Source: Romanomermis culicivorax
Taxonomy: Eukaryota; Nematoda; Enoplea; Mermithida; Mermithidae
Direction: 5' to 3'
DNA: 64,000 nt
Assembly: GCA_963922205.1 (NCBI GenBank)
Contig: CAWUHX010000087.1
Location: forward strand, 558,001-622,000
Positions 3,575-62,401 of this stretch are shown here, piece by piece. The position numbers were made by a program, and so were the translations under genes. Below the pieces are notes generated by a model. The model made no database searches and was not told the DNA's origin. It was given only the letters and a program-made list of their open reading frames with translations. Position 1 is the first letter of the stretch, and each line of letters opens with the position of its first letter.

Positions 3575-4447
3575 ATGGATTTTGAAGAAATAGTTTGTCT
3601 ATCTCAACATCATGAAAAATTGATACCATTTCTTTAAAAAGAAAATAATTTGCTTGTAAAACAGACTTCATGCAATACCTGTAATTCACCTACGAATATG
3701 GTTAAAAAACAACAATTGAATGACAATTTTATCTGGTGTTGCAAAATTTGCAAGTCACAGAAATCAATTCGAACTGCATTAATTTTATGGGACCTGATGA
3801 CTATTAGACACTGGTTTAATGATCTTTTATTTATTTGCAAACGATTATCCTGCATATTTGGCTCATCGATTAATCAGGAAAAGAGTTACATATGACACTA
3901 TATTAGAGTGGTATGATAAATCTCGTGACATTTGCACAAAGATTATGCTAACAAACCAATTGAAATTTACATCAGACGTCCTTATTAGCCAACAGGAAAC
4001 TGCAGTAGAAATAGACGAGTCCTTCTTTGGAAAAAAAGCAAAAAATGACAAGGGTACCAGCAAACAAATGGCCTTAGTACCTACTGGAACGAAGTGGTAC
4101 ACAGTGAATCCAACAAACTCAAGAGAAATCTTGCTTTCAATAATCCAGAAATACATATCAAATGAGGTTACAATATATCATGATGGTCTGGCCACTTATG
4201 CTAATGTAGATACATATGGATACAATCATAAAGTCATGCCATAATAAGGAATTCGTGACTGAGGATGGCATTCATACAAATACCATAGAAGGCTTGTGGG
4301 GACTAGCAGAGGATATCGAGAATGCATGGATTAATAACAATGGAACGCTTAGTTGCTCATTTGGACGAATTTTCATTTCGTCAAAATTATAAAGATAATA
4401 ATGATTCGATTTGGAAATTTTTTGTGAACTCATTAACAAACTTATGA
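3575..4447 (+). pseudogene. Merlin/IS1016-type (ISXO2-like) DDE transposase relic
   Basis: The frame starts at ATG 3575 and meets an in-frame TAA at 3635. It continues through a zinc-binding block with CNTC and CKIC pairs (about 3668-3755). After a frameshift near 3825 comes the catalytic core: VEIDESFFGKK (first Asp, about 4005-4040), YHDGLATY (second Asp, about 4177-4200), and after a further shift near 4245, HTNTIEGLWG (Glu, about 4272-4300). Another shift near 4310 leads to the C-terminal block AHLDEFSFRQNY, and the last stop is at 4445. DxD..E spacing and the IEGLW motif are typical of the ISXO2-like/Merlin group. At least three frame breaks and one stop make it inactive. I did not find its terminal inverted repeats. 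Confidence 0.8.
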
Positions 4448-18996: not shown

Positions 18997-19104
18997 GTCG
19001 CTTCCCGGCCTTCAGCCTGTTGTTTGTTCATTTTGAGCATGGATTTCTGTGACTAGTGAATAGACATTTATTTTTCCTTTAAAATTTTCCTTAGGCTTAG
19101 GCTT

Positions 19105-28712: not shown

Positions 28713-29100
28713 GTTAACCTATGTACATCTTTGGTACATTGCACTTTGCAATAGGATACTAAATTTTTTTCCTATAATCATGGCCGTACATCTACTTGTA
28801 TGATCTGGACCCTGTGATAACATTGGTTTGAGATTTTTGAGCATTGAAAAGACTGTGACGAAGTCGAAACTACACGAAAACTCAAGTTCGAATTATTTGA
28901 TATCAGAATAGTGGTCTTACGCTGTCAGATAGAATTCATTGTAATTATTGTAAGGTTTCAAATTGCGATGAGGAACTCTGGTGCTTGTTTAAGAAAATAA
29001 CCGAATTCTGAAATCTTCTCGCGTTATGGAGAAATGCATGAAATTTTGTGTATTGAAGTTTGACTAAACATTCAAATTTTAATGAGGTTAATCTTTAGGC
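28713..29100. other. Upstream region of PIGO
   Basis: No coding signal. The sequence just before the PIGO ATG reads TTAATCTTTAGGC, a possible trans-splice acceptor two bases upstream of the start. Confidence 0.4.
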
Positions 29101-32100: not shown

Positions 32101-32606
32101 CTATACCTTGGGATGCAGCGTTTCTAGGTATTCAGAATCTTGATTACGAAATTTTCAAAAATATCCAATTGAAGACAATTTTTCAAGCGATTTTAGTTAT
32201 AGCTAACTTATCGGCAGCCAATGTCATAATCGTGCATTGTCTGCCGCTCGTTGAAATTTGGCCTTGTTTCCCAGAAAAATTGGGATTCTTGGCTTTAAGT
32301 AGAAAAAGTTCTTCTCCAGAAGCCGATTGTTTCTCCCACGCGTCGAAAAATTTTCAATGGAAAGTTTTCCGAATTAATCTTATTTTCGTCACTTTACAAG
32401 CTTGGAAATTAATTTGTATAATAGGCGCATCCATGTTACACAGGCGTCATTTGATGGTTTGGAAAATTTTTGCACCGAAATTTATTTTCGATGGTGTTCT
32501 CTTCATTGTCACTTGCTCTTTATTGATAATTCAGTATTTATTTATTATGCGATTGTCGATTTGCTTCGCCAAGTTTATGAATAATCTGAAAATGAAAATT
32601 TCCTAA
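29101..32606 (+). CDS. PIGO: GPI ethanolamine phosphate transferase 3 (PIG-O)
   Basis: Four exons (29101-29506, 29741-30083, 30290-30658, 30755-32606) join in phase to 990 codons, giving 989 aa (vertebrate PIG-O is about 1,090). PIG-O works in the ER membrane with PIG-F, adding ethanolamine phosphate to the third mannose of the GPI anchor. That phosphate links the anchor to protein. The sequence shows an N-terminal membrane anchor, then a lumenal alkaline-phosphatase-type domain. Visible are VIDALRYDF (metal Asp near residue 64), the threonine cluster before [10 protein letters not shown] (nucleophile region, 117-119), [21 protein letters not shown] and [14 protein letters not shown]. The fourth exon is a long multi-span membrane region. 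No key residue seems lost. The SLC46-like gene follows after only 93 bp. Confidence 0.95.
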
Positions 32607-41573: not shown

Positions 41574-41927
41574 TAACGAGTTGAGTACGTAGAGATGGAT
41601 GTATCTTTGTAGCATAGTATAAACGACAGTCGTAAAGACGTCTTGCTGGTTATGATTGTCAAGGTTTAAATTTTCAACTAGGGAGGGAAGTTTCATCCTG
41701 CGTCGTGCGACAGAAAACCTGTTGTCACATTAGATGAAATTGGAGCCATGTCACATTAAGTAATACTGTGGCCAATCACGTTGATGAAAAAACCCATGCC
41801 ATATTGGTAGGAAAATACGGCCATGTCACTGTGAATGACATGCTGTGACCCTGTTGCGTGGCTCGCTTATTTCATCTTGGGGAACCTGAACCAGCTAGTT
41901 CTGGCTATACGAAGGCCTATAGGGTAC
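41574..41927. other. 3' flank of nodulin-like gene
   Basis: No gene seen. Words TGTCACATT(A) and CCATGTCAC recur several times at 41720-41850. It ends with GTAC, the target duplication of element A. Confidence 0.5.
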
Positions 41928-42809
41928 TGTAACGTACCTGCTAAAGCAGTACTGTAAACATGTAGCATACTGTATGTAATAGACATTTATTAGATATTAT
42001 TTTATTTTTCACATTTTATGTCTCAAGGATGTCTGGGATTCACACCCAAACATTCCTACAAAATTACGTGAAGTACTTTATTTTGATCCGTTCACACCCC
42101 GGTAGCCCAATTAAGATGCCCTAATTAATTTGCACAAACGGCAGCTGTTCCCCTAGAATCTACACTAAACTACACATTCCACAGCTACCGTAATCCCCAG
42201 TAAAAATCGTAAACAACACCTGCACACAGTAAAATATGTAGAAGCCCCGCCGTACAGTAGTCTCAAGTGTAACAGTAGCGGCGGCCCCACAAAACGTGTG
42301 TATACAAAGAAACCGATACAGGAAGCATGCACAGAAGCACAGAGGTGTGGCCAAGCCCACCGTAGAAAGCAAGCAAAGCACAGAAAGCATACAGTACCAG
42401 AAAAGCATTAGAGAGGCGTAGTTAAGAAAGCATGAAAAGCGTAGCCGGAAACGACGATTGGCGGAAGAAAATGGACAGAAGCTCGACCTCCCGCAGCGTC
42501 CAGGGAGTGGCCAAAATCGCCGTATAAAAGAAGAAGCAAAGCGTGATTTTGGTCTTTTTATTCTGATTCTTATTCTTGTGTTTTTTCCGCGCTCGCCCCG
42601 TCTTTATACATTTGCAAGCGGCCGATTATTCGAAAGCATTTAAACCGAGGCCCCATCCGTTTTTATTCGAAGCGCGTTTTATTTGTCGACGTTCAAGCGA
42701 CCGTCGAATTAACCGTTGTTGTTGTAACCGTTCGCCCTGCCCCGTATTTGCCCCGCCGTAACGCCGTTGGTTGAGAAGTAAAGTACCTCACTCAAAACTG
42801 GTCGTTACA
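41928..42809 (+). repeat. 5' LTR of element A
   Basis: 882 bp, starting TGTAACGTACCTGCTAAAGC and ending ACTGGTCGTTACA. TATAAAAG at 42523-42530 is the likely promoter. Contains eight or more CAGTA/TACTG words (for example CAGTACTGTA, TACAGTAG, CATACAGTACC). Confidence 0.95.
42523..42530 (+). promoter_or_regulatory. TATA box of element A LTR
   Basis: TATAAAAG, preceded by GTGGCCAAAA. Element B keeps it (43811-43818); element C has GTATTTAAAG at the matching place. Confidence 0.65.
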
Positions 42810-42814
42810 TATTT

Positions 42815-42830
42815 TGGTGACCGTACCGTT
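42815..42830 (+). promoter_or_regulatory. Primer-binding site of element A
   Basis: TGGTGACCGTACCGTT starts five bases after the LTR. The TGG start pairs with a tRNA CCA end. The rest resembles the TGGCGACCGTGAC site used with tRNA-Arg by some insect elements, but I cannot name the tRNA with confidence. Elements B and C have near-identical sites. Confidence 0.6.
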
Positions 42831-43051
42831 ACGTTAACCAGTGGAACTCCCTGCCCCCAGTTAGGTGTACTCTTATCCGGGCGTTTAGAAGCATTAGTAA
42901 TACAGTAGTAATCATTTCCTACAGTAAGACGGTATTCGTATTAAGCAAACTGGAAACCCCCTCCAACGAAGCATTAAGCGATACATTTAAACGAATACAG
43001 CGTGAAGCAAAAATTGAAGCATTTAAGCAGAAATCCCAACGTAAACCGAGA

Positions 43052-43242
43052 ATGACCCACCAAACGCAAGATCATTTAGGAGAAATCGTTAGAGAACAGA
43101 TAAACGATTTATTTTCAGAACATTTTCGTACCCTACGCACACAATTGAATCAGAATACAGTAAACCCTACCCTAATAGACGATCTAAGAACAGCAAACAT
43201 TCGTAATAACATGGCAAACAATTTCTACGCAAAACCTACAGT
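43052..43242 (+). CDS. Element A Gag N-terminus, interrupted by element B
   Basis: 64 codons of the polyprotein from ATG 43052, up to the point where element B starts at 43243. It begins MTHQTQDHLGEIVREQIN and matches B's Gag start (44204). The frame resumes at 47364, after B and the duplicated CAGT, in the same phase. The short extension to 43294 reads into B's LTR and is not native. Confidence 0.85.
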
Positions 43243-44052
43243 TGTAACGTACCTGCTAAAGCAGTACTGTAAATATGTAGCATACTGTATGTGATATTCA
43301 TTTATTAGATATTATTTTCATTTATTAATCTATCGTCTCAAGGGTGTCTGGAATTCACACCCAAACATTCTTATAAATTTATGTGGAGCACTTTATTTTG
43401 ATCTTCCCATACCCCATTGACCCAATTAAAGACGCACATAATTATTTCCACATTGGCACCTGGCCCTCGTAATGCACATGAAGATACACATTCTGTAGGT
43501 ACAATAATCCCCTCCAAAACGCGTAAACACACCTGCCTATGTAGAAAGTACAGAAATTCCGACCCAGACAGAAGATTTAGGAGGAATGCATGGAAGACCG
43601 AAAAACACATGAAAAACTAAAAAAACATAGGCGGCAAAGCATACTGTAGGTCAAAAGGCATGCAAGCGTAGAAATTAGGAGTAAATTAACATGAGGCGTG
43701 GCGAAAGAAGCATACAGTAGGCGGAAACAGGTAAGCGAAGCAGCGATTGGTGGAAAAAGATCGACGGAAACACGACCTCCCGCGACGCCCAGGGAGTGGC
43801 CAAAACGTTGTATAAAAGAGAAGGAAAGCGTGATTTTTATGATTATTGGTCGTGATTATTATTCGTGGTGTTTTTTAAATTCGTGGTTCACGTCCGTATT
43901 TCAATTCGAAGCGCGTTTATCGTCGACGTTCAAGCGACCGTCGATCCCCGTTGTTTATTGTAATCGTACGCCCGCGCCCCCGTCCCGTTATTTACCCGCC
44001 GTACCGACCGATTGGTCCAAGTAAAGTACCTCACAGAAATCTGGTCGTTACA
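43243..44052 (+). repeat. 5' LTR of element B
   Basis: 810 bp, TGTAACGTACC...GGTCGTTACA, with TATAAAAG at 43811-43818. The primer site TGGTGACCGTACCGTACC follows shortly after. Confidence 0.93.
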
Positions 44053-44203
44053 TATTTTTGGTGACCGTACCGTACCGTTAACCACTGGAACTCCCTGCCC
44101 CATTAAGGTGCATCCTATATCCGGGCATCCCTAAGCAGTAATCGCATACAGTAATAATCGTTTCCTACAGTAGGACAGACAATCGTAAAAGCACAAACTG
44201 AAA

Positions 44204-46579
44204 ATGACCCACCATACAACAGACCACTTAGGAGAAATTGTAAGAGAGCAAATCAACGAACTTTTTGCAGAAAATTTTCGAACTTTACACACACAATTGA
44301 GCAAAAACACTATGAATCCCACCCTGATAGACGATTTGAGAACGGCCAACATCCGTAACAGTATGACAAACAATTTTTATGCAAAACCTACAGTATTTAC
44401 GGGAGGAGTAACCCAACATTTCGGCCAATGGAGCAAGCGACTAGAACAGTTCATGATACTACAAGGCATGAAAGATACTGACGAGCAACTCAAATTAGCA
44501 TGTTTTGAAATTCATTTGGGTGGTGCAGCATTAGCAAAATTCAAAAGTTTAGAAAATTCTGAAAACCCACCCCAAACGTATGAACAGTATAAAACTGCAT
44601 TACAAGCATGTTTCCCCGACCACAGAGACACAGATTTACACCAACATTTTTTGCATGAACGGAAACAAAAAAGTTCGGAAACTGTCATTGAATTTTTGTT
44701 TGACCTCGAGCATCTAGCGACCCTCGCCTACCCCAATTTCAATTCAGAGGCGCGAGAAATGATAATCAAACCCCTTTTCATGGAAGGCATGCAGATTGAA
44801 ATTCGAGAGGCACTCAAGTACAAACGATTCACCTCCCTAACAGACATGTCTGACGAGGCAGCTTATGTTGAACAACAAATTTTCAGAAACAGATTGAAAT
44901 CTAGCCCCATACCCCTCATATCCCCTGAATCGGAACCCATTCTTTCATTAGGCAATTACACTGAACAGCAGGGAATCCTACATAAATTAGAACAAGTCAT
45001 GGAGTTGCAATTGCAAATACTGCAAAATTCCCAAGCTCAACCCCATCATGATAACAGTAATTTGAGACAGACCACATGTTTTCAATGCAATCAAGTCGGG
45101 CATTTCGCCAGAAATTGTAATTCACCAGGTACTCAAAAGTCATGCCAAATTTGCTTTAGGAGTAATCACATGACTCGAGACTGTAAAAGCAGATGCATTC
45201 ACTGTTCTCAAACTGGTCACAGATCCAGCCATTGCATATCAAAAAGCTACTCAAATGCAGAATGTTTTCTTTGTAAGCAAAAAGGTCACATGAGTAGATA
45301 TTGCCCCAACCAAATGACCCCTAACGCCCAAAATTGCATTGAAGAGAGACTACCCCCACCACAAATGAACATTGATGTCCCAGTCATGTACTCCACATTG
45401 CCCACTGTCCAGCATCAACCTCAACATGCTTTAAATACAGTTCTGCCCAGCAGTCATAAGCAGTTTGACCCCCAGTATGTCCTTGACATACCCCTTCCTG
45501 ATACAAGCAGCACTTCAAAAATTGCATCACCAAAAAGCAGTGACATGTTGAAATCCAAACTCCCCCAGCCTAAAATTGCACAGAAACATAAACATCCTGA
45601 AACCAGTGAGACGTCCAAACCTGACCCAGCATGCAAAAAGGAACGCCCAATGTTTTCACAATTGCAGCACCTTCCCACAGACCCCAACACATTCCCCAGG
45701 CGAAAAACTTCTCTTCCTACCCCCAAAGCACGAAAAAATCGTAAAATTCATTTTGCAGCTAGCATTTTCCAAAGTAAAAATAGTGGTATCTGCAGTCCTG
45801 TCTCAAACGACGTCAGCAAGATCCAAATCCCCCATCCTGATACATGCATCGACCCTGTTTCTTGTCCCCTCCCAATGACAGACCCCAACACATTCCCCAG
45901 GCGAAAAACTTCTCTTCCTACCCCCAAAGCACAAGAAAATCGTAAAATTCGTTTTGCAGCTAGCATTTCCCAGAGTAAAAGTAGTGGTATCTGCAGTTCT
46001 AGCTCAAACGACGTCAGCAAGCCCCAAATCTCCTATCCTGATACATGCATCGCCCCTGTTTCTTGTCCCCTCCCAGCGAAAAATTCAACCGCCCAATCTC
46101 ATTTTCCCACCCAAAACAAACAGAAACGTTTTCATACATTCCCATGGGTAAAAGGCAAAGTAGAATCGACCAAAACTGACAGGATTGAAACGGAAAAAGC
46201 TGAGTTAATCAATTTCTTATCCAAATATCAGCTCCTTCACACTGAGTCAAAAACACATGTGAGTCACAGGCCACTTGTCTCCCACAGCATTGGTACAAGT
46301 AATTATAAACACAGACACAGACCCCTTTCTCGAAAACCACCAAAAGCAAAACAAAGCATCAAACACAAAGTTGAGCAACTTAAGAAAGCTGATGTTATCA
46401 ATCAAAGCACATCCCCTTCATGTAAAACAGGCAGTTCAATCGTTCAGACAAATTCCCCAATTCCCCCTATCCCTCCAAGTCTTCGACCTCAAAACCCTCT
46501 CTCCCTCGACCCCCTTGAACGAGGACGTTCAACTCCAGAAGGAGGGAAATGTAACGTACCTGCTAAAGCAGTACTGTAA
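44204..46579 (+). CDS. Element B Gag-derived protein, 791 aa, intact
   Basis: Starts MTHHTTDHLGEIVREQIN. A retrotransposon Gag capsid-type region follows (RLEQFMILQGMKDTDEQLKL near residues 85-105, FLHERKQKSSETVIEFLFDL near 145-165). Then come four consecutive CX2CX4HX4C zinc knuckles (about residues 290-365) that would bind RNA. The C-terminal half is proline-, serine- and lysine-rich. It carries a 201-bp in-frame tandem duplication (45680-46081) and remnants of the linker between protease and RT (LVSHSIGTSNYKHRHRPLSR). All enzymatic domains are gone, but the frame is unbroken and ends at 46577-46579, inside the 3' LTR. An intact frame suggests the Gag product is still selected or the element is very young. 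Confidence 0.85.
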   Translation: MTHHTTDHLGEIVREQINELFAENFRTLHTQLSKNTMNPTLIDDLRTANIRNSMTNNFYAKPTVFTGGVTQHFGQWSKRLEQFMILQGMKDTDEQLKLACFEIHLGGAALAKFKSLENSENPPQTYEQYKTALQACFPDHRDTDLHQHFLHERKQKSSETVIEFLFDLEHLATLAYPNFNSEAREMIIKPLFMEGMQIEIREALKYKRFTSLTDMSDEAAYVEQQIFRNRLKSSPIPLISPESEPILSLGNYTEQQGILHKLEQVMELQLQILQNSQAQPHHDNSNLRQTTCFQCNQVGHFARNCNSPGTQKSCQICFRSNHMTRDCKSRCIHCSQTGHRSSHCISKSYSNAECFLCKQKGHMSRYCPNQMTPNAQNCIEERLPPPQMNIDVPVMYSTLPTVQHQPQHALNTVLPSSHKQFDPQYVLDIPLPDTSSTSKIASPKSSDMLKSKLPQPKIAQKHKHPETSETSKPDPACKKERPMFSQLQHLPTDPNTFPRRKTSLPTPKARKNRKIHFAASIFQSKNSGICSPVSNDVSKIQIPHPDTCIDPVSCPLPMTDPNTFPRRKTSLPTPKAQENRKIRFAASISQSKSSGICSSSSNDVSKPQISYPDTCIAPVSCPLPAKNSTAQSHFPTQNKQKRFHTFPWVKGKVESTKTDRIETEKAELINFLSKYQLLHTESKTHVSHRPLVSHSIGTSNYKHRHRPLSRKPPKAKQSIKHKVEQLKKADVINQSTSPSCKTGSSIVQTNSPIPPIPPSLRPQNPLSLDPLERGRSTPEGGKCNVPAKAVL
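45680..46081 (+). repeat. In-frame tandem duplication in element B
   Basis: Two 201-bp units, each starting with the DPNTFPRRKTSLPTPKA coding block and ending with CPLP. Part of the unit corresponds to A's linker between protease and RT (KVHFAACIS, LYPGTCIGTVSC). Confidence 0.85.
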
Positions 46580-47359
46580 ATATGTAGCATACTGTATGTG
46601 ATATTCATTTATTAGATATTATTTTCATTTATTAATCTATCGTCTCAAGGGTGTCTGGAATTCACACCCAAACATTCTTATAAATTTATGTGGAGCACTT
46701 TATTTTGATCTTCCCATACCCCATTGACCCAATTAAAGACGCACATAATTATTTCCACATTGGCACCTGGCCCTCGTAATGCACATGAAGATACACATTC
46801 TGTAGGTACAATAATCCCCTCCAAAACGCGTAAACACACCTGCCTATGTAGAAAGTACAGAAATTCCGACCCAGACAGAAGATTTAGGAGGAATGCATGG
46901 AAGACCGAAAAACACATGAAAAACTAAAAAAACATAGGCGGCAAAGCATACTGTAGGTCAAAAGGCATGCAAGCGTAGAAATTAGGAGTAAATTAACATG
47001 AGGCGTGGCGAAAGAAGCATACAGTAGGCGGAAACAGGTAAGCGAAGCAGCGATTGGTGGAAAAAGATCGACGGAAACACGACCTCCCGCGACGCCCAGG
47101 GAGTGGCCAAAACGTTGTATAAAAGAGAAGGAAAGCGTGATTTTTATGATTATTGGTCGTGATTATTATTCGTGGTGTTTTTTAAATTCGTGGTTCACGT
47201 CCGTATTTCAATTCGAAGCGCGTTTATCGTCGACGTTCAAGCGACCGTCGATCCCCGTTGTTTATTGTAATCGTACGCCCGCGCCCCCGTCCCGTTATTT
47301 ACCCGCCGTACCGACCGATTGGTCCAAGTAAAGTACCTCACAGAAATCTGGTCGTTACA
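46550..47359 (+). repeat. 3' LTR of element B
   Basis: 810 bp, same length and content as 43243-44052. Preceded by the polypurine tract AGAAGGAGGGAAA. Confidence 0.93.
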
Positions 47360-47363
47360 CAGT

Positions 47364-50300
47364 ATTCACGGGCGGCGTGACCCAACATTTTGGTGAATGG
47401 AACAAAAGATTAGAACAATTCATGGCACTCCAAGGCATGAAAGATACAGACGTACAGTTAAAGTTAGCATGTTTAGAAATTCATTTAGGAGGAGCCGCGT
47501 TAGCTAAATTCAAAAGTTTAGCAAATTCTGAAAACCCTCCCCACACATACGAGCAGTATAAAGTCGCATTACAGACATTTTTCCCAAACAATAGAGATAA
47601 TGAGCTACATCAACAATTCTTACGCGAAAGAAAACAAAAGCGATCAGAAACAGTAACGGAATTCTTATTTGATCTAGAACATCTCGCAACCCTCGCCTAC
47701 CCTAACTTTAACACAGACGCACGAGAAATGATCATAAAACCCCTCTTTGTAGAAGGCATGCAAAACGAAATCAGGGAAGCAATTAAGTATAGAAGGTTCG
47801 CAACTCTAAAAGAAATGTCAGACGAAGCAGCTTACATTGAGCAGCAAATTCTTAGAAATGAGTTAAAGTCTAACGCCCTTCCCTTCATACCCCCAAAACC
47901 CGAACCCATCTTTTCCCTCACCAAAAATACAGACCAACAGGATCTTTTGCATCAGTTAGAACAACAAGTAAAAGATTTACAGTTGCAGATCAAACAAAAA
48001 CCTCAACCCCCACAACAAAGTAGCTACAACAATTTCAGTAACAATACTTTAAACAGGAGTAATGCTTACAGGAACAATACCACCCCTAGGCAACCCACAT
48101 GCTTCCAGTGTGGACAAATCGGACACGTAGCTCGTAATTGTAAATCAGTAGGCACCCGAAAATCATGTGAAATCTGTTTCCGTAATAATCACAGTACACG
48201 TGATTGTAAAAGCCCATGCATCCACTGCTCCCAAACAGGACATAGATCAGATAACTGCCCTTCAAAACCCCACTCCAATTTTCAATGTTTTATATGCAAG
48301 CAGAGAGGTCATACAAGCAGGTATTGTCCAAATCAGCAGAGTCGCAATATTCAAAATTGCATTGAGTATAGGCAACCCCAACCCCTCATGGACATTGATG
48401 ATCCCGCATTTTACTCAAAATTACCCGCCATAACTAACGGCCCTCAGACTACTTTAGGAACTATCATGCCCAACACCCACCGCCGCAGTGACGAATACGT
48501 CCTTGATCTGGACGTACCCGATTGGTGCGCCATGTCACCACCCCCCACGCCTGAAGCCGAAAAAATCGAAAAATCGCCGCCCACCATCCCCGTAGGCTAC
48601 AAGATCCCCCGAAAGCAAGACACAACGCCGCCCAACGCCCCCGAAACCCCGTCGAAAACAGGTCGCAACTTGTTATCCCTCCTCCATGGCCTGACCCCTG
48701 AACCCTACCAATTTCGCCCCCGCCAAACATTGCTACCGACCCCCGCAAGTAAGCAAGTCCAAACCCCATCCCATAACTCAATTTCTAAAATTTTACAGAA
48801 CGCTCAGATTTCAAACCGGCCACCCCCCCAACGCAAAATCGCAAAACGACAACACCAAAAGCCCCAACACCAAACCGGCCACAACGGAAACATACAGTGC
48901 CCCGCCGCCTCCACTAAAACATTCTATTGGCCGATGTTTTGTATTTTTCTTTGTATAATAATCCCCACATCGTGTAGTGCCCAATTTCAGATGTGTGGAA
49001 CTTCATTGAGCGGTCACTCAGTCAGCATACCAAAACTTGTATCATGCATGCCCCCTTCCACAGTAGACAAACCCGTACAAACATTCGGAAAAATCTATAT
49101 CCCCTCCACTAAGCCCCACATTACAGACGCATACAAATGCAGTGTTCGCAAACGCAAAATTTGTACTAATACAGGATTTTTTGGATCAAAAGGTATTGTC
49201 TTCGACCAAACCGAAATGCAAAATCTAACCCCACATGTTTGTAAGGCAATCGTTATAGACAAAGAACACAACGGTCAAAAATTATACGAAACCCAACCAG
49301 GATTTTGGTCAACAAATAACTCCCTAAGCGTAGAATACACATGGTGTTGTACAGACCATTGTACCTCAGTCACTAACGTCATCATAGAAATAGGACAAAT
49401 AGCATCTTGGAATGGAAAATCTATGACAGGTACATTAGGTGACCTAGGGTCATGCAAACCAACATCAGGCCATTGTGTCACAGCCGACGGATCCATTATC
49501 TGGAATGAAACAGCATTTGAAAACTTATGCCCCTTCGAATACAAAAATACACATCCCATCAAACTCACACAAACACACATGATAATAGAAGAGCTACAAG
49601 GTGCATTTTCGGTTAAAAACACACTCTTTTCAAACCCCAATTGCCCAGAAATCCAAGACAGCATTCTAACCGAACAAGGCATTATTGTACAATTAGACAA
49701 AAGCACCCCACATCGTAATGCATTTTTAACCCCAAAAACCAACGAAACTCATACCACATTATACGATTTTGATGATTTTGAACCCATCAATGCAAAACTA
49801 AACTATCTAGCAGACAAAATACAGGAATTCGAAATTCAAAATTTCAAAAACGTATGGAATGAATTATGCAGACAGGCACAGCGTCACCTTGATCTCGTAT
49901 GGCAAATTTTACGTCTTGATGCAACCCTTGGAGCGCGTGCATTCCTACAGCGAACTGACATAATAGCAGAATTCACAGGAGAAGCCCTCACAGTCTGGCC
50001 CTGCAAGCAGGTAAATGCATCCAAAGTCTTTTACAACCATAAAATCAACCAAACATGCTACAAACTTTTGCCCATTCTCGTAGGAACTGAACTCATGTTT
50101 TCAAATCCAGGAGGCAACGATTTGACCCCTTTTTCACAAACAGTTGACTGCCATCACATGCATGTAGCCCTTTACAAACAGAATAATACATGGGTCAGTG
50201 AAACAGGATCCCCACATGTCACAAACTTACCCTTAGAAATTGTCTGGAACCAAAATTTTTCCCTTTTCCATTTTAATACACCCGCCATTTTTCATGATCA

Positions 50301-53300
50301 ACTTGCAACTATTTCAACCAACTTACTCTTTTTGAAACAATACATTTACAAAACTCACACACTCGAAAACACTGTCAACAAACTCGTCAATTATACCGCC
50401 CAAATGTCTCTCAATTCCGATACAGTTTACAACATGATCTCAGGCACTGGCCAAGCACTCGGAAATACACTCTCTGGCGCCGGTCAAGGCATAGAACATG
50501 TAATAACCGGTACCACCCAAAGTCTCACGGACGGATTAAACAATTTACTCAAAGGACCCCTGCAAATCATTATAAATCTAGCCGTTATTACTGTAGTTAT
50601 TGCAGGCGTCTTTTATTCATTCCTCATTCTTCGAAAATATTTCCCCTCTCCAAAGCATCATGCAACAAACGAACATGCATACGAAATACCATCAAACAAC
50701 AGACATTTACATGAGGCCATACCCCCATCATTCGGCCATGCCCTCTTAGAATTAGCTAATCGTCGTGGGGCACAAACACAACAGAAATACGTCCTTGTCG
50801 ATATTGATACCCCCCGAACTCCTGCAATCGAACTCATTAATCAAATTCAGCAATCTGCATCAAATAAGCCACCCCAAAACGTGCCTGAAAAACATACCCC
50901 TCACATCCCGATTACACTTAACGGCAAATTAATGACAAAAGGCATGATTGACACTGGTGCAGTTTACTCACTCATTGATTCCCGAGTCGCTCAACTTTTA
51001 CAGTTAGACATGAAACCCCCGCTAGTCCAAGCAAAAGCAGCAAATAATCTCCCGATTCACTTTGTAGGAACCACTTTTGTCACAGTGACAGCCCAAACCA
51101 TCCAGGAAACAATCATGGTCCATGTCCAAAACGATTGCACAGCAGACATCCTTCTAGGCAAAAACTTTCTCAGTCGATTTTCGGAATACACTATCAACAA
51201 TCAAAAATCACAGGTCAAATTTGGCAATGTTATACTACCTTGTGATGGCCTAGAATATAGCCCTCTTTCAACTCGTGGTGGAACTTATTTGGACGAAAAA
51301 TTAGAATTACCACCCCGTACCGTAACCGAATTTACTGTCCCCTTGCCCAAATCCTACTTACAGGTCAAACAGCTTGAATTCACCCCAAAACCCAAACAGA
51401 ATCCCAAAGTCCATTTCGCAGCTTGCATCTCTGAAAATCAAAACAGTCGCATACGCATATCCGTCCTAAACACACAAGAAACAGCTCAAATTCTTTATCC
51501 TGGAACATGCATTGGTACAGTCTCATGTTACATCCCAAAACAAAATACTCCCGCTAACGTAACCCCTTCAACGCAAAACCAGCCCAACCGTTTTGATACA
51601 TTCACATGGTTAAAAGAAAATGTTAATTTAACCTCCAGTGACCTCACAGAAACCGAGAAAATGCAACTCCTACGCGCCCTATCGAAGTACCCTACATTAT
51701 ATGCTAAATCCAAAATGGATGTAGGTAGAACCACCCTCGTTTCACATACAATTGACACCAATGGCTCCCAACCAGTACGTAGACAACTTTATCGGACTTC
51801 CCCAAAAGAAAAGCAAATCATACAGGCAGAAGTTGAGCAACTCGCAGCAGCAGGTGTCATAAGCCAAAGCAATTCCCCATGGTGTACCAACACAGTTTTA
51901 GTTCCCAAAAAAGACGGAGGCCATCGTTTATGCATTGATTTTAGAGGCCTCAACAAAGTCACCAAAAAAGATACATACCCCCTGCCCCGCATAGACGAAA
52001 TTTTAGACACCCTACGTGGAATGAAATATTTCACGTCCCTTGACCAATCTAATGCATACTATTCCATCCCCATAGCACAAGCCGACAGAGAAAAAACGGC
52101 CTTCAATTGCTCAGCCGGCCAGTATCAATTCAATTACCTCCCTTTTGGACTCACCAATGCCCCAGCCACATTCCAAAGGTTAATGGATGTTATTCTTTCG
52201 GGTCTGCAATGGAACACATGCCTTGTATACCTCGACGATGTTTTAGTATTCGCAGACTCCCATGCCCAAATGCTGGAACGTTTAGACACTATCCTTGCCC
52301 GATTCTCCCAAGCAGGCCTTAAGCTAAACATCCAAAAATGCAAATTCTGCCAGCCCCAAGTCCAATACTTAGGCCACGTCATTTCCCAGCAAGGCATTTC
52401 ACCAGACCCCCATAAGGTACAGGCAATCTATGACATACCCACGCCCAAAAGCTCAAAAGAAGTTAAATCATTCCTTGGCCTACCCTCATATTACCGCAGA
52501 TTCATTCCAAATTGCTCTCAAGTTTCTAGCCCACTCACATCGCTACTCAAAAAGAACTCAGAATTTTCCTGGGGCCCTGAACAGCAAAATGCATTCACTA
52601 AGCTAAAAGAATTACTCATTCATGCCCCAATACTGCAGCATCCAGATTTCACCAAACCGTTTATTCTGCAAACTGACGCCTCAAAACTCGGCATCGGCGC
52701 CATTCTCAGTCAGCTAGATAGTAAAGGTCAGGATCGCCCCATTGCTTTTGGGAGCCGCACATTGAAACCCGCAGAACGCAACTACCCGATCACTGAGCTG
52801 GAAACCCTTGCAGTAGTCGAATTTGTCAAGTATTTCCGCCCTTATCTTTTCCAGCAACATGTTATTGTACACACTGACCACACAGCAGTTCAGGCAGTCT
52901 TACAAAAAGAAAACCCGTCCCCTCGCATTGCCCGTTGGGGATTAGCCCTCTCTGGTATTCAGCTAGACATTCGACCCAAGAAAGGCACTGCTAACCGCAA
53001 CGCAGATGCAGTTTCCCGATTCCCCTCACAGACAGCAAAGCAATCCTTTGATATTGAGCAATTAGAAACCCGCCCCGAAATATCAACCATCAATTCAGTT
53101 TTGGAAGCCGAAGCAACTGAACAAGAAGAGCAACAGAAAAACTTTGCCGAACTCCAACGCACTGATCCAACTGTCAAAAGTATTTTAGCAAAAATTGCCC
53201 AAAAACACCCCCTTACTCTGATCAAATTCGCCGTGCATCAAAACATTCTCTTCCGTATAGTCGACAAACAGGCAAAACTATACATTCCCAAGTCCCAAGT

Positions 53301-54402
53301 CCAGCATCTCATCGCTTCACATCATGACAGCAAGTTCACAGGTCATTTTGCAGCCCGGAAAACCCTACACTTGCTCAGACAGAAATATTTTTGGCCCCAA
53401 ATGAGCCGTGATATCAAACGTTACTGCAAAACTTGTCACCCATGCCAGACACAGAAAGCCCTCCGACACAAAGTGCATGCAAACTTGGTACCAATTCAGC
53501 CGACTGGCCCCTTTGATAGAGTCGGTGTTGATTGCATGGGACCGTTACCCCTCACAGAAGACGGCAACCGATTTATTGTCGTTTTCATCGATTATTTCAC
53601 AAAGTATGTAGAGGCATTCCCGACCCCTGACATCACTGCAGCCACTATTGCCAAGCTATTCGTAACCAAAATTGTTTGTCGTCATGGGTCCCCAAAAATC
53701 ATCCATTGTGATCGTGGCACCGATTTTGTATCCGACCTCTTCTCACGGATCACCAGTTTATGCAATACTCAAAAAATTCACACTACCCCATATCATCCCA
53801 TTGCCAATGGAGAAGTTGAGCGTTGCAACCAAACCCTAGCCACCCGTATCCGCATGTACATCAATTCAAATCACACTGATTGGGATACTTATCTGCCCTA
53901 TGCCGTTTTTTCGATCAACATCCATAAAAATGATAGCACATCATATCCCCCCTTTGAATTACTCCACGGTCGGCAAGCTAATCTGCCGTCAGATGCAGCT
54001 TTAAGTTTCTTCCCCACATCCTACATGGTTGATTTAAATGATTACGCCCTTCGTGTAAAATCGCATTTTACAGAAGCCCTCTCAACTGTGCAGAAAAGTT
54101 TGCAAAAAGCCCAAGCCCACTATACCCGTCAGTATAACAAGCACGCTCAGAACATACATTACAAGGCAGGTGATCTTATTCTTTATAAAAATCATTCGTG
54201 TAAACAAGGGTTGACTCCCAAATTCCTCCCTCGCCAAAACGGCCCCTATACAGTTACAAATTTCATGTACCCCAACGTTACACTCAAACACCCCCATAAG
54301 AATATTACATTTACGGTGCATGTAAATGAGACAACCCCTTTCTACCCTCGGAAAGCAACTATCGAATCTACCCCCACCCTTCCTCAACCCCGAAAGCCTT
54401 GA
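47364..54402 (+). CDS. Element A polyprotein: Gag-Env-like-PR-RT-RH-IN
   Basis: One open frame continues A's Gag start (43052-43242). Positions here count from codon 47377. Gag: capsid-like region, then four CX2CX4HX4C knuckles at 242-255, 264-277, 281-294 and 304-317. Envelope-like part: Met 520 leads a hydrophobic signal-like stretch (FCIFLCIIIPTSCSA), a cysteine-rich ectodomain with at least eight N-glycosylation sites, a glycine-rich membrane-proximal stretch, and one transmembrane helix at about 1062-1085. Protease: DTGA at 1192, ILLGKNF later. RT: LCIDFRGLNK and YLDD at 1618-1621. RNase H: TDAS Asp near 1767. Integrase: HHCC zinc site from about 1982; DDE at about 2052, 2112 and 2148; GPYTV box. 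No chromodomain. No stop or frameshift separates the envelope part from its neighbours. All catalytic residues are present. Confidence 0.9.
48934..50700 (+). other. Envelope-like glycoprotein segment inside the polyprotein
   Basis: Features visible: a signal-type hydrophobic run after Met (48934-48978), many paired cysteines, N-x-S/T sites (for example NETAF, NASKV, NQTCY, NNTWV, NYTAQ), a basic RKRK cluster, then a Gly/Thr/Gln-rich stretch and the helix LQIIINLAVITVVIAGVFYS (50560-50631). A tail of about 100 residues leads straight into the protease. It is envelope-like by architecture. I cannot assign a fusion-protein class by eye. Element C keeps a diverged copy. Confidence 0.75.
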
Positions 54403-54420
54403 ACGAGGACGTTCAACTCC

Positions 54421-54433
54421 GGAAGGAGGGAAA
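54421..54433 (+). promoter_or_regulatory. Polypurine tract of element A
   Basis: GGAAGGAGGGAAA, thirteen purines directly before the 3' LTR; the likely plus-strand primer. Elements B (46537-46549) and C (61457-61469) have equivalents. Confidence 0.85.
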
Positions 54434-55315
54434 TGTAACGTACCTGCTAAAGCAGTACTGTAAACATGTAGCATACTGTATGTAATAGACATTTATTAGA
54501 TATTATTTTATTTTTCACATTTTATGTCTCAAGGATGTCTGGGATTCACACCCAAACATTCCTACAAAATTACGTGAAGTACTTTATTTTGATCCGTTCA
54601 CACCCCGGTAGCCCAATTAAGATGCCCTAATTAATTTGCACAAACGGCAGCTGTTCCCCTAGAATCTACACTAAACTACACATTCCACAGCTACCGTAAT
54701 CCCCAGTAAAAATCGTAAACAACACCTGCACACAGTAAAATATGTAGAAGCCCCGCCGTACAGTAGTCTCAAGTGTAACAGTAGCGGCGGCCCCACAAAA
54801 CGTGTGTATACAAAGAAACCGATACAGGAAGCATGCACAGAAGCACAGAGGTGTGGCCAAGCCCACCGTAGAAAGCAAGCAAAGCACAGAAAGCATACAG
54901 TACCAGAAAAGCATTAGAGAGGCGTAGTTAAGAAAGCATGAAAAGCGTAGCCGGAAACGACGATTGGCGGAAGAAAATGGACAGAAGCTCGACCTCCCGC
55001 AGCGTCCAGGGAGTGGCCAAAATCGCCGTATAAAAGAAGAAGCAAAGCGTGATTTTGGTCTTTTTATTCTGATTCTTATTCTTGTGTTTTTTCCGCGCTC
55101 GCCCCGTCTTTATACATTTGCAAGCGGCCGATTATTCGAAAGCATTTAAACCGAGGCCCCATCCGTTTTTATTCGAAGCGCGTTTTATTTGTCGACGTTC
55201 AAGCGACCGTCGAATTAACCGTTGTTGTTGTAACCGTTCGCCCTGCCCCGTATTTGCCCCGCCGTAACGCCGTTGGTTGAGAAGTAAAGTACCTCACTCA
55301 AAACTGGTCGTTACA
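54434..55315 (+). repeat. 3' LTR of element A
   Basis: 882 bp, equal in length to 41928-42809; the translated frames inside both copies are identical. Confidence 0.95.
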
Positions 55316-55496
55316 GTACTATGGTGCTGTCCTGGGGTTCTGCTGTAGAGTAATGTACAATGCAACCAGAGGTCAGGGGTGGCAATCCCTGGTCCCATTC
55401 AGTGAGAACGAAGGACAAGGCCACTCGTAGAGTGACCTAGGGGACCCGATTGTAAACTTAAATCCCCTTTTAGCCCTAAACAAGAGGTGCAAGGGC
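55316..55496. other. Host spacer between elements A and C
   Basis: 181 bp of non-repetitive sequence beginning with A's GTAC duplication and ending with C's GGGC duplication. No gene. Confidence 0.7.
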
Positions 55497-56402
55497 TGTA
55501 ACGTACCTGCTAAAGCAGTACTGTGAATATATAGCATACTGTATGTGATAGACATTTATTAAATATTATTTCATTTTCGTATTGTACCATCTCAAGGGTG
55601 TCTGGGATTCACACCCAAACATTCCTATAAAATTACGTGAAGTACTTTATTTCGATTCGTTCACACCCCCGTAGCCCAATTAAGATGCCCCAATTAATTT
55701 GCACAAACAGCAGCTGGTCCCCTAGAACCTACACTAAACTACACATTCCACGGCTACCGTAATCCCCTGTAAAAATCGTAAACAACACCTGCACACAGTA
55801 AAATACGTCAAAGCCCCGCCAGACAGTAGTCTCAAGTGTAACGGTAGCGATGGCCGAACCAAAACGTGTGTATACAGAGAAACTGATTTAGGAAGCATGC
55901 ACAGAAGCACAGAGGTGTGGCTAAGCCCACTGTAGGAAGCAAGCAATACACGAAAAGCATACAGTACCAGGAAAGCATTAGAAAGGCGTGACTAAGTAAG
56001 CATGGAAAGTGAAGCAGGAAGCGATGATTGGCGGAAGAAGATGGACAGAAGCACGACCTCTGGTGACGCCCAGGGAGTGGCCAAAAACGTCGTATTTAAA
56101 GAGAAGCAAAGCGTGATTTTATTATTGGTGATTATTGAATTCTTCGTTTTTCAAACCACACTCGTCTCGTTTTATATTTGCAAGCAGCCATTTTTACGAA
56201 AGCAGTTAAACCGAGGCCCATTCATTATGTGCAAGCTGAGGCCGTGTTCTTTCATTATTTGTTGTCGACGTCTCAAAGCAGCCATCGATTAGTATCTGTA
56301 TTGCCCCGTATTGTCCAATGGCCCGTCTCCCCTGCACCCCGTTTCATTGCCCTAACGTTCATTTGGTTAAAGTAAAGTGCTTCACAAAATCTGGTCGTTA
56401 CA
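55497..56402 (+). repeat. 5' LTR of element C
   Basis: 906 bp, TGTAACGTACC...GGTCGTTACA; TATTTAAA near 56093-56100. The primer site TGGTGACCATACCGTACC follows. Confidence 0.92.
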
Positions 56403-56604
56403 TATTTTGGTGACCATACCGTACCATTAACCACTGGGATTCCCTGTCCCCAGTTAGGTGTACTCTTATCTGGGCATTTCGAAGCATTAGATAATACAGT
56501 AGTAATTACTTTCTACAGTAAGACAGTATTTGTAGAAAGCAAACTGGAAATCCCCTCCAATGAAACATTAAGGGATACATTTGTACAAATACAGCGAGAA
56601 GCAA

Positions 56605-59600
56605 AAATTGAAGCATTTAAGCAGAAATCCCACCATAAACCAAGAACGACCAACCAAACGCAAGATCATTTAGGAGAAATTGTTAGAGAACAGATAAACG
56701 ATTTATTTTCTGAACATTTTCATACTCTATGCACACAATTGAATCAGAATACAGTAAACCTTACCCTAATGGATGATCTAAGAACAGCAAACATTCTTAA
56801 TAACATGGCAAATAATTTTTAAGCGAAACCTACAGTATTCATGGGTGGCGTGACCCAACATTTTGGTGAATGGAATAAACGTTTAGAACAATTCATGGCA
56901 CTTCAAGGCATGAAAGATACAGATGTACAGTTAAAGTTGGCATGTTTAGAGATTCATTTAGGAGGAGCCGCGTTAGCAAAATTCAAAAGTTTAGCTGATT
57001 CCGAAAACCCTCCCCACACATATGAGCAGTATAAAGTCACATTACAGGCCTTTTTCCCAAACAATCGAGATAATGAGCTACATCAACAATTTTTACGAGA
57101 GAGAACTCACTCAGCATACCAAAACTTGTATCATGCATGCCCCCTTCCACAGTAGACAAACCAGTACAGACATTTGGAAAAATCTATATCACCTCCACTA
57201 AGCCTCACACTACAGATGCAAACAAATGCAGTGTTCGCAAACCGAAAATTTGTACTAATACAGGATTTTTTGGCTCAAAAGGTATTGTCTTCGACCAAAC
57301 CGAAATGCAAAATCTAACCCCACATGTTTGTAAGGCAATCGTTATAGACAAAGAACACAACAGTCAAAAATCATACGAAACCCAACCAGGATTTTGGTCA
57401 ACAAACAGCTCCCTAAGCGTAGAATACACAGGGTGTTGTACAGACCACTGTACATCAGTGACTAACTTCATCATAGAAATGGGACAAATAGCATCTTGGA
57501 ATGGAAGATCTATGACAGGTACATTAGGTGACCTGGGGTCATACAAACCAACATCAGGCTATTGTGTAACAACCCAAGGATCCATTATCTGGAATGAAAC
57601 AGCATTCGAAAACTTATGCCCTTTCAAATACAAAAATATGCATCCCATCAAACTCACGCAAACCCACATGATAATAGAAGAGCTACAAGGTGCATTTTCC
57701 CTTAAAAATACACTCTTTTCGAACCCCAACTGCCCAGAAATTCAAGACAGTGTCCTAACTGAGCAGGGCATTGTTGTCCAGCTAGATAAAAGCACCCCAC
57801 ATGGAAACGCAATTTTAACCCCAAAAACCAACGAAACTCATACTACACTCTATGATTTTGACGCTTTGGAACTGATTAATGCGAAACTAAATTATCTAGC
57901 AGACAAAATCAAGGAATTCGAAATTCAAAATTTCAAAAATGTATGGAGTGAATGGTGCAGACAGGCACAGCGTCACCTTGATCTCGTATGGCAAATTTTG
58001 TGCCTTGATCCAACCCTTGGGGCATGTGCATTCCTACAGCGAACCCACATAATAGCAGAATTCACAGGAGAAGCCCTCACCGTCTGGCCCTGTAAACAAG
58101 TAAACGCATCTAAAGTCTTCTACAACCATAAAATCAACCAAACATGCTACAAACTTTTACCCATTCTTGTAGGAACCGAACTCATGTTTTCGAACCCAGG
58201 AGGAAACAATCTGACCCCTTTGTCACAAACAGTTGACTGCCATCATATGCATGTAGCATTTTACAAACAGAACAATACATGGGTCAGTGAAACAGGATCC
58301 CCACATGTCACAAATCAACCGTTAGAAATTGTCTGGAACTAAAATTTTTCCCTTTTCCATTTTAACACACCCACAAATTTTTATGATCAACTTGCAACAA
58401 TTTCGACAAACTTACTCTTTTTGAAACAATACATTTACAAAACTCACACACTCCAAAACGTTGTTAAAAAACTCCTCAATTACACCACCCAAATGTCCCT
58501 TAAATCAGATACAGTTTACAATATGATCTCAGGCAGTGGCCAAACAATCGGAAATACCCTCTCTGGTGCTGGTCAAGGCATAGAACATGTAATAACCGGT
58601 ACCAGCCAAGCCTCACGAACAGACTAAATAATTTACTCAAAGGACCCCTGCAAATCATTATTAATCTAGCCATTATTACTGTAGTTATTGCAGGCATCTT
58701 TTATTCTTTTCTCATTCTTTGAAAATATTTCCCCTTCCCAAAGCATCAGGTCACAAATGAACATGCGTACGATATATCATCACACAACAGACATTTACAT
58801 GAGACCATTCCCCCATCATTCGGTCATGCTCTCTTAGAATTAGCTAATCGCCGTGGGGCACAAACACAGCAGAAATACGTCCTTGTCGATATTGATACCC
58901 CCTGAACTCCTGCAATCGAACTCATTAATCAAATTCACCAATCTGCATCAAATAAGCCACCCCAAAATGTACCTGAGAAACATACCCCTCATATTCCAAT
59001 CACACTTAACGGCAAATTAATGACAAAAGGCATGATTGATACTGGTGCAGTTTACTCACTCATTGATTCCCGAATCGCTCAAATCCTACAGTTAGACATG
59101 AAACCCCCGCTAGTCCAAGCAAAAGCAGCAAAGAATCTTCCGATTCACTTTGTAGGGACCACTTTTGTCACAGTGACAGCCCAAACAATCCAGGAAACAA
59201 TCATGGTCCATGTCCAAAAAGATTGCACAGCAGACATCCTTCTAGGCAAAAACTTTCTCAGTCGATTTTCGGAATACACTATCAACAATCAAAAATCACA
59301 GGTCAAATTTGGCAATGTTATACTACCTTGTGATGGCCTGGAATATAGCCCTCTTTCAACTCGTGGTGGAACTTATTTAGACGAGAAATTAGAATTACCA
59401 CCCCGTACAGTAACCGAATTTACTGTCCCCTTGCCCGAATCGTACTTACAGGTCAAACAGCTTGAATTTACTCCGAAACCCAAGCAGAATCCCAAAGTCC
59501 ATTTCGCCGCTTGTATCTCGGAAAATCAAAACAGTTGCATACGTATATCCGTCCTAAACACACAAGAAACAGCCCAAATTCTTTATCCTGGAACATGCAT

Positions 59601-61438
59601 TGGTACAGTCTCATGTTACATCCCAAAACAAAATGCTCCCGCTAATCTAACCCCTCCAATGCAAAACCAGCCCAACCGGTTCGACACATTCGCATGGTTA
59701 AAAGAAAATGTCAATTTAACCTCCAGTGACCTCACAGAAACCGAGAAAATGCAAATCCTACGCGCCCTATCGAAGTACCCTACATTATATGCTAAATCCA
59801 AAATGGACGTAGGCAGAACCACCCTCGTTTCTCATACAATTGACACCAATGGCTCCCAACCCGTACGTAGACAACTTTATCGGACTTCCCCAAAAGAAAA
59901 GCAAATCATACAAGCAGAAGTTGAGCAACTCGCAGCAGCAGGTGTCATAAGCCAAAGCAATTCTCCATGGTGTACCAATACAGTTTTAGTCCCCAAAAAA
60001 GATGGAGGCCATCGCTTATGCATTGATTTTAGAGGCCTCAACAAAGTCACCAAAAAAGATACCTACCCCTTGCCCCGTATAGACGAAATTCTAGACACCC
60101 TACGTGGAATGAAATATTTCACCTCCCTTGACCAATCCAATGCATATTATTCCATTCCCATAGCACAAGCAGACAGAGAAAAAACTGCATTCAATTGCTC
60201 AGCCGGCCAGTATCAATTCAATTACCTCCCCTTTGGACTCACCAATGCCCCAGCCACATTCCAAAGGTTAATGGATGTTATTCTTTCGGGTCTGCAATGG
60301 AACACATGCCTTGTACATCTCGACGATGTTTTGGTATTCGCAGACTCCCATGCCCAAATGTTGGGACGTTTAGACACTATTCTTGCCCGATTCTCACAAG
60401 CAGGCCTCAAGCTAAACATACAAAAATGCAAATTCTGCCAGCCCCAAGTCCAATACTTAGGCCACGTCATTTCTCAGCAAGGCATTTCACCAGACCCCCA
60501 TAAGGTACAGGCCATTTATGACATACCCACGCCCAAAAGCTCAAAAGAAGTTAAGTCATTCCTTGGCCTAAACTCGTATTATCGCAGAACTTAAGACGGC
60601 AACCAATTTATTGTTGTTTTCATCGATTATTTCACCAAGTATGTGGAGGCATTTCCGACCCCTGATATCACTGCAGCCACTATTGCCAAATTAATCGTAA
60701 CCAAAATCGTTTGCCATCATGGCTCCCCAAAAATCATCCATTGTGACCGTGGCTCCGATTTTGTATCTGATCTCTTTTCAGGGATCACTAGCTTATGCAA
60801 CACTCAGAAAATTCATACCACCCCATACCATCCCATTGCCAATGGGGAAGTTGAGCGTTGCAACCAGACCCTAGCCACCCGTATCCGCATGTATATCAAT
60901 TCAAATCACACTGATTGGGATACTTATCTACCCTATGCCGTTTTTTCGATTAACATTCATAAGAACGATAGCACCTCGTATCCCCCATTTGAATTACTCC
61001 ATGGTAGACAGGCTAATCTTCCATCAGACACAGCTTTACATTTTTTTCCCCACATCCTACAAGGTTGATTTAGATGACTACGCCCTTCGTGTAAAATCAC
61101 ATTTTACAGAAGCACTCTCAACCGTGCAGAAAAGCTTACAAAAAGCCCAAAACCACTATACCCGTCAGTATAACAAGCATGCTCAGAACATACATTACAA
61201 GGCAGGTAATCTTATTCTTTACAAAAATCATTCGTGTAAACAAGGGCTCACTCCCAAATTCCTCCCTCGCCAAAACCAGCCCTATACAGTAACAAATTTC
61301 ATGTACCCCAATGTTACACTCAAACACCCCCATAAGAATATCACATTTATAGTACATGTAAATGAGACAACCCCTTTCTACCCTCGTAAAGCACCTATCG
61401 AAACTGCCCCCACCCCTCTTCACCCTCAAAAGCCTTGA
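56605..61438 (+). pseudogene. Element C polyprotein, broken
   Basis: The Gag start codon is changed (ACG) and a TAA follows at about 56819. Capsid-like Gag runs from 56841 to about 57106, where a deletion joins it to the envelope ectodomain, removing all zinc knuckles and the signal-like segment. Envelope-like sequence runs 57137-58342 (stop where A has Gln), then 58343-58690 with a frameshift near 58615, including the transmembrane helix. Protease and RT are open from 59020 to 60594 (DTGA; HLDD where A has YLDD). A second deletion removes the rest of RT, RNase H and the integrase zinc site, and integrase catalytic sequence resumes at about 60596-61060 with a frameshift near 61045. The C-terminus reaches 61438. 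Confidence 0.88.
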
Positions 61439-61469
61439 ACGAGGACGTTCAACTCCGGAAGGAGGGAAA

Positions 61470-62401
61470 TGTAATGTACCTGCTGAAGCAGTACTGTAAA
61501 TATATAGCATACTGTATGTGATAGACATTTATTAAATATTATTTCATTTTCGTATTTTACCGTCTCAAGGGTGTCTGGGATTCACACCCAAACATTCCTA
61601 TAAAATTACGTGAAGTACTTTATTTTGATCTGTTCACACCCCAGTAGCCTAATTAAGATGCCCCAATTAATTTGCACAAATGACAGCTGGTCCAATTAAT
61701 TTGCACAAATGGCAGCTGGTCCCCTAGAACCTACACTAAACTACACATTCCACGGCTACCGTAATCCCCCGTAAAAATCATAAACAACACCTACATACAG
61801 TAAAATAAGTAAAAGCCCCGCCAGACAGTAGTCTCAAGTGTAACAGTAGCGACGGCCCCACAAAACATGTGTATTCAGAGAAACAGATACAGGAAGCATG
61901 CACAGAAGCACAAAGGTGTCGCTAAGCCCACCGTAGGAAGCAAGCAATACACGAAAAGCATACCATACTAGAAAAGTGTTAAAGGGCATGACTAAGTAAG
62001 CATGAAAAGCAAAGCAGGAAGCGACAATTGGCGGAAGAAGATGGACAGAAGCACGACCTCCCGTGACGCTCAGGGAGTGGCCAAAAACGTCGTATTTAAA
62101 GAGAAGCAAAGCGTGATTTTATTATTAGCGATTATTGAATTCTTTGTTTTTCAAACCACGCTCGTCTCGTTTTATATTTGCAAACAGCCATTTTACGAAA
62201 GCAGTTAAACCGAGGCCCATTCATTATGTGCAAGCTGAGGCCGCGTATTTTCATTATTTGTTGTCGACGTCTCAAAGCAGCCGTCGATTAGTATCTGTAT
62301 TGCCCCCTATTGTCCAATGGCCCGTCTCCCCTGCGCCCCGTTTCATTGCCCTAACGTTCATTTGGTTAAAGTAAAGTGCTTCACAAAATCTGGTCGTTAC
62401 A
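61470..62401 (+). repeat. 3' LTR of element C
   Basis: 932 bp; longer than its partner mainly because of a local duplication of CCAATTAATTTGCACAAAT at about 61662-61710. Confidence 0.9.

Follow-up and report, generated by a model that had tools for sequence, protein, structure and literature searches.

Element X and its reading frame

The stretch of DNA analyzed here (the window, 64,000 nucleotides) is from contig CAWUHX010000087.1 of the mermithid nematode Romanomermis culicivorax. It contains a long terminal repeat (LTR) element of the Ty3/gypsy type, termed X, which extends from 41928 to 55315 (13388 bp). This length includes a second element, Y, nested in the gag gene; without Y and one copy of the target-site duplication (TSD), X has 9267 bp (by subtraction). 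X encodes Gag, Env, protease (PR), reverse transcriptase (RT), RNase H and integrase in this order, so that an envelope-like (Env) segment is located between Gag and protease in one frame, as the original prediction had stated. A related insertion, Z, is also found in the window. All features are listed in Table 1.

X has the hallmarks of the Metaviridae, which are LTRs, a primer-binding site, a polypurine tract and a short TSD. Its LTR pair is identical (882 of 882 bases) and, judged from this identity, the insertion is young. The copy had been described as young, with all enzymatic motifs intact; it is, however, disabled despite its identical LTRs, as the Y insertion breaks gag. Y cuts gag after codon 63, and thus no intact Gag can be made from X's own ATG (43052). 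Two earlier assignments have to be revised for the same reason. Position 47364, taken as the start of the element, is the first base after the Y 3' LTR and its TSD (CAGT), and the GTG start codon at 47377 is an artefact of the Y insertion.

The frame is open across 2341 codons (47377-54402). The stretch from the zinc knuckles to the DTGA motif of the protease (48337-50949) has no stop codon, while the other forward frames have 47 and 45. None of 2000 base-shuffled versions of this stretch was stop-free. Gag is represented by three stretches of CCHC knuckles (zf-CCHC, 5.1e-10). The match to Retrotrans_gag (4.9e-5, 23.9 bits) is slightly under the Pfam cut-off (24.1), and that to Ty3_capsid (4.9e-4) is also below cut-off. 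An AlphaFold2 model of the capsid was too poor for a fold search. The order protease, RT, RNase H and integrase is that of Ty3/gypsy elements (Metaviridae). Among solved structures, to which this comparison was confined, the closest to the RT/RNase H of X is that of Ty3 (7q5b, 3.4e-94; 4ol8, 4.1e-94). The integrase matches those of foamy virus and Ty3. Only 31 bases separate the integrase stop codon from the 3' LTR, which leaves no space for a further gene downstream of pol; a position of env after pol was rejected for X.

Within 48703-50958, only two hydropathy peaks exceed 1.2 (48931-48987 and 50566-50622; from a hydropathy profile rather than a dedicated predictor). This agrees with the signal-type run and the single membrane helix described earlier. 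Between them, Env matches PF24664 (Monjiviricetes_fusion) with 68.0 bits (5.7e-19) in X and 70.4 bits (1e-19) in Z, the cut-off being 27 bits. The core piece alone gives 69.6 bits (1.8e-19). Protein positions 268-446 correspond to profile positions 295-467 of 653, with similar distances to the N-terminus. We take the Monjiviricetes fusion family to be class III. The core has further matches below cut-off, to the bornavirus glycoprotein (BDV_G, 5.9e-4) and to herpesvirus gB (1.3e-3 in X and 1.8e-6 in Z). On X, these carry little weight alone because the scan also gave a value of 0.0037 for a family that is unrelated. Herpesvirus gB is described as a class III fusion protein (PMC9094657). Judged from its profile matches, the Env core is a homolog of class III-type (mononegavirus-type) viral fusion glycoproteins.

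The rest of the ectodomain, including its N-terminal part, had no match to a fusion family in the profile scan. Env had no match in the NCBIfam scan and none among solved structures when compared by sequence. An AlphaFold2 model of Env (two-sequence input) had a predicted local distance difference test score of 30.0 and was not used. The ectodomain had also been called cysteine-rich and glycosylated, which is not borne out. It has 9 sequons versus 6.5 expected (at least 9 in 389 of 2000 shuffles), and the cysteine density is 3.0 per 100 versus 3.1 in the Gag piece. Neither count is above expectation, and both were rejected as evidence for Env. Pattern searches covered viral and prokaryote records, a collection that says little about animals. 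For Env, they returned no match in viral contigs and 10 matches in genome contigs, none of them confirmed; in viral contigs, 13 PR-RT and 6 RNase H-integrase matches were obtained, again none confirmed.

Table 1. Features of X, of the nested element Y and of the related insertion Z (window positions).
Feature	Position	Strand	Remarks
X 5' LTR	41928-42809	+	882 bp, TGTAAC...GTTACA
X primer-binding-site region	42810-42850	+	TTTTGGTGACC..., similar across X, Y and Z
X gag, first 63 codons	43052-43242	+	ATG 43052, then interrupted by Y
X gag, remainder	47360-48933	+	with a capsid-like region, CCHC zinc knuckles and a tail rich in proline; the second TSD copy of Y makes up its first 4 bases
Signal-type hydrophobic run	48934-48981	+	Met 48934, ...SCSA / Q; cleavage point by eye
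Env ectodomain	48982-50565	+	fusion-glycoprotein core about 49738-50274
Membrane helix	50566-50622	+	type I orientation, with basic residues after the helix
Env tail and linker to protease	50623-50949	+	in frame
Aspartic protease	50950-51200	+	end approximate; DTGA at 50950; PF13975 7e-9
RT and RNase H piece	51640-53020	+	RT 4.7e-39, RNase H 1.6e-37
Integrase	53284-54402	+	H2C2 zinc domain 1.3e-21, rve core 5e-9; stop codon 54400-54402
X polypurine tract	54421-54433	+	GGAAGGAGGGAAA
X 3' LTR	54434-55315	+	identical to X 5' LTR
X TSD	41924-41927 and 55316-55319		GTAC
Y	43243-47359	+	non-autonomous Gag-only relative, nested in X gag
Y LTRs	43243-44052 and 46550-47359		identical to each other
Y open reading frame	44204-46579		intact, 791 aa, Gag-type
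Y TSD	43239-43242 and 47360-47363		CAGT
Z	55497-62401	+	older insertion related to X; TSD differs from that of X

Related insertions and surroundings

Z, the LTRs of which are about 94% alike, keeps env between a gag remnant and the protease. When X and Z are compared, the ratio of nonsynonymous to synonymous substitution rates (dN/dS) is 0.06 for gag (89 codons), 0.16 for env (593 codons), 0.09 for the protease piece (164 codons), 0.06 for the PR-RT linker with RT (400 codons) and 0.10 for integrase (280 codons). Within Env, the fusion-glycoprotein core is the best-conserved part (0.09), and the stretch with helix and tail (50520-50805, 94 codons) has 0.19. Differences in env fall on codon positions 1, 2 and 3 in the proportion 42/18/103. 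Env and its link to the protease are under purifying selection. The internal region of Z (56837-61437) lacks two stretches that are present in X, one covering the end of gag and the signal run (X 47633-49015), the other the RNase H / integrase zinc region (X 52501-53557). As the gag-env junction is deleted in Z, it is visible only in X.

These data bear on the explanation that a viral glycoprotein was inserted into a single copy by chance rearrangement or as a pseudogene. For chuvirus-type glycoproteins, numerous integrations into the genomes of mosquitoes are indeed described (PMC7642597). However, X and Z are two separate insertions with different TSDs, in both of which env precedes the protease, and purifying selection acts on Env in frame. 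Z makes a single-copy rearrangement, which had been named as a possible refutation, unlikely, and chance insertion as a whole is hardly credible.

Y is young, judged with its identical LTRs. It had no match to env, protease, RT or integrase in the profile scan, and it is presumably mobilized by the enzymes of X-like elements. Pieces of the protease-RT linker are retained in Y, within a 198-bp tandem duplication (45677-46075). An origin of Y from a spliced RNA was rejected: the join sits in a shared ACCCC, and there is no AG acceptor (by eye). From the sequence at the join, which is old and ambiguous, a template-switch deletion appears likelier than splicing as the cause of the internal loss.

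Elsewhere in the window, fragments of DUF3987 (1225-1851) and of an IS1595/ISXO2-like transposase (3801-4244) lie near each other. The open reading frame at 19064-20898 codes for a reverse transcriptase (RVT_1, 3e-35) and resembles the non-LTR type of element. A multi-exon gene (29092-32606) resembles a glycosylphosphatidylinositol phosphoethanolamine transferase; two of its exons match Phosphodiest and, below cut-off, Sulfatase. MFS transporter genes are also found beside the element, and the flanking genes show stretches that resemble short introns. This gene content would fit the genome of an invertebrate animal. Neither the Rfam nor the tRNA scan gave a match in the window.

Expression of the Gag-Env-Pol frame

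We consider it moderately probable that X is an endogenous retrovirus-like element of Ty3/gypsy type with a single Gag-Env-Pol polyprotein, in which a class III-type fusogen is placed between nucleocapsid and protease. The full-length RNA would be translated into one chain. The internal signal run would be recognized on leaving the ribosome, Env would enter the lumen of the endoplasmic reticulum (ER), and signal peptidase would cut after SCSA. The membrane helix would then stop transfer and the chain would return to the cytosol, so that protease, RT and integrase would be made on the cytosolic side. The element's own protease would separate Gag from the signal peptide, and Pol from the tail of Env. 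Once released, Env would allow other cells to be entered, e.g. germ cells. By analogy, such threading corresponds to the topology of flavivirus or alphavirus polyproteins.

The original prediction had offered a membrane-inserted polyprotein or, alternatively, internal initiation or splicing at Met 48934. The latter can be framed as translation of Env from a spliced RNA, with a leader donor (GTAAGA, 42924) spliced to an acceptor upstream of Met 48934 (e.g. one ending at 48798), which would make Met 48934 the first ATG. The full-length RNA would then code for Gag-Pol with Env as a passenger, or Env would be removed by a second splice. Several points argue for this and against a single chain. The 135 bases from 48799 to 48933 are devoid of ATG; the donor-like GTAAGA is the same in X and Z but not present in Y; and a spliced RNA (cerv) is described for Cer1 of Caenorhabditis elegans (PMC10309623). 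On the other hand, splice-like sites are about as frequent in 47364-54402 as expected from a Markov model (60 simulations), with 8 acceptor-like sites versus 7.35 expected and 11 donor-like sites versus 9.68. The leader donor-like site scored under the scan cut-off (5.5), and Met 48934 has a C at position -3. A message beginning at 48934 would likewise meet no stop codon, and its translation would continue through protease and polymerase. The deletion breakpoint of Y (near X 48749) adjoins a donor-like site, yet its other end is not on an AG acceptor (by eye). We therefore favor the single membrane-threaded polyprotein, given that splice-like sites occur at chance level, and consider a spliced Env message the less likely alternative.

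Removal of Env by splicing via 48749/50605 was tried as a candidate and rejected. The frame would be kept (hand count), but part of the membrane helix would remain, and the site counts are at chance level. The strongest acceptor-like site of the open reading frame is at 48990 (AATTTCAG), just past the presumed signal cleavage point, with an in-frame ATG directly after it. This site is probably due to chance (1 observed versus 0.67 expected at that score).

A further option is that Env now acts as an internal membrane anchor or as an assembly domain, having lost its role in entry. Being fused to both Gag and Pol, Env would be well placed as a tether, and the sole basic cluster in its ectodomain differs between X (RKRK, at 49147) and Z (RKPK). 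The pattern of selection argues against it, with the fusion core being better conserved (dN/dS 0.09) than helix and tail (0.19). We rate this option as improbable.

As far as can be read from the sequence, no convincing splice signal, stop codon or frameshift separates Env from its neighbors. One polyprotein appears to be the simplest reading, and the same is implied for Cer1 and Atlas virus (see below) by their single frames. X raises the question of how Gag and polymerase on one side of the membrane and Env on the other can be made from one frame when splicing and frameshifting, which usually set their ratios, are lacking. It is tempting to speculate, if only tentatively, that a compact Ty3/gypsy lineage apart from Burro (see below) placed a class III fusogen in its polyprotein independently. 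Its virion proteins would be made as one membrane-threaded chain and in equal amounts, as in a flavivirus, and capsid, envelope and enzymes would assemble at the ER while still joined by the envelope.

Comparison with known elements

Gypsy/errantiviruses and other Metaviridae share with X the LTRs, primer-binding site, polypurine tract, the order of protease, RT, RNase H and integrase, and a Ty3-type RT. In the errantivirus-type arrangement, env is downstream of integrase (PMC7879559), whereas it precedes the protease in X. Cer1 is also a Ty3/gypsy element with one long frame, which is similar in size to that of X (2272 aa in Cer1), and no gag-pol stop. The passages describing it, however, name no env among its products, but a spliced regulator, CERV (PMC3315495, PMC10309623). 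Atlas virus of hookworm is described as having an envelope, akin to that of another virus family, within its single frame; it is, however, of the BEL/Pao type, and its class II (phlebovirus-type) Env is at the C-terminal end, after Pol (PMC9094657). Tas of Ascaris and Anakin of mosquitoes are likewise LTR elements with a gB-like (Tas, PMC9094657) or chuvirus-type (Anakin, PMC7642597) envelope. Both belong to BEL/Pao, and env of Tas is downstream of the polyprotein (PMC7642597). The origin of this env is disputed, being gB-like according to PMC9094657 and from a phlebovirus according to PMC7642597.

The order of genes in X was correctly called unusual, but it has a precedent. Burro (GYPSM1), a family of giant gypsy-like planarian elements reported in 2019, is described with env in frame between gag and protease (PMC6431247). 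Like X, it is of Gypsy type and has a Gag with CCHC knuckles. Its env region is reported to match mononegavirus fusion glycoproteins of arthropods and fish, and X apparently has the same type of fusogen. Unlike X, Burro exceeds 30 kb, its ORF1 has 4873 aa (5140 aa in Dugesia tigrina), and BCL2, BIR, ankyrin, MATH and other domains are described, together with a dUTPase between protease and RT. With about 9.3 kb (Y excluded), X has approximately one-third of the size of Burro, the two being compared by description only. None of the Burro-type extra domains was found in the scanned pieces of X, 47377-54399 (E up to 1) and 48388-48981, which do not cover the first 63 gag codons. Among the matches listed in the open-licence literature, Burro is the only other case of env between gag and protease; further cases may exist. 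New in X is a compact version without Burro's extra domains and with evidence of selection. X suggests that the arrangement of Burro is a solution that recurs, rather than an oddity confined to giant elements of planarians, and it provides this gene order in a normal-sized element that is open to study.
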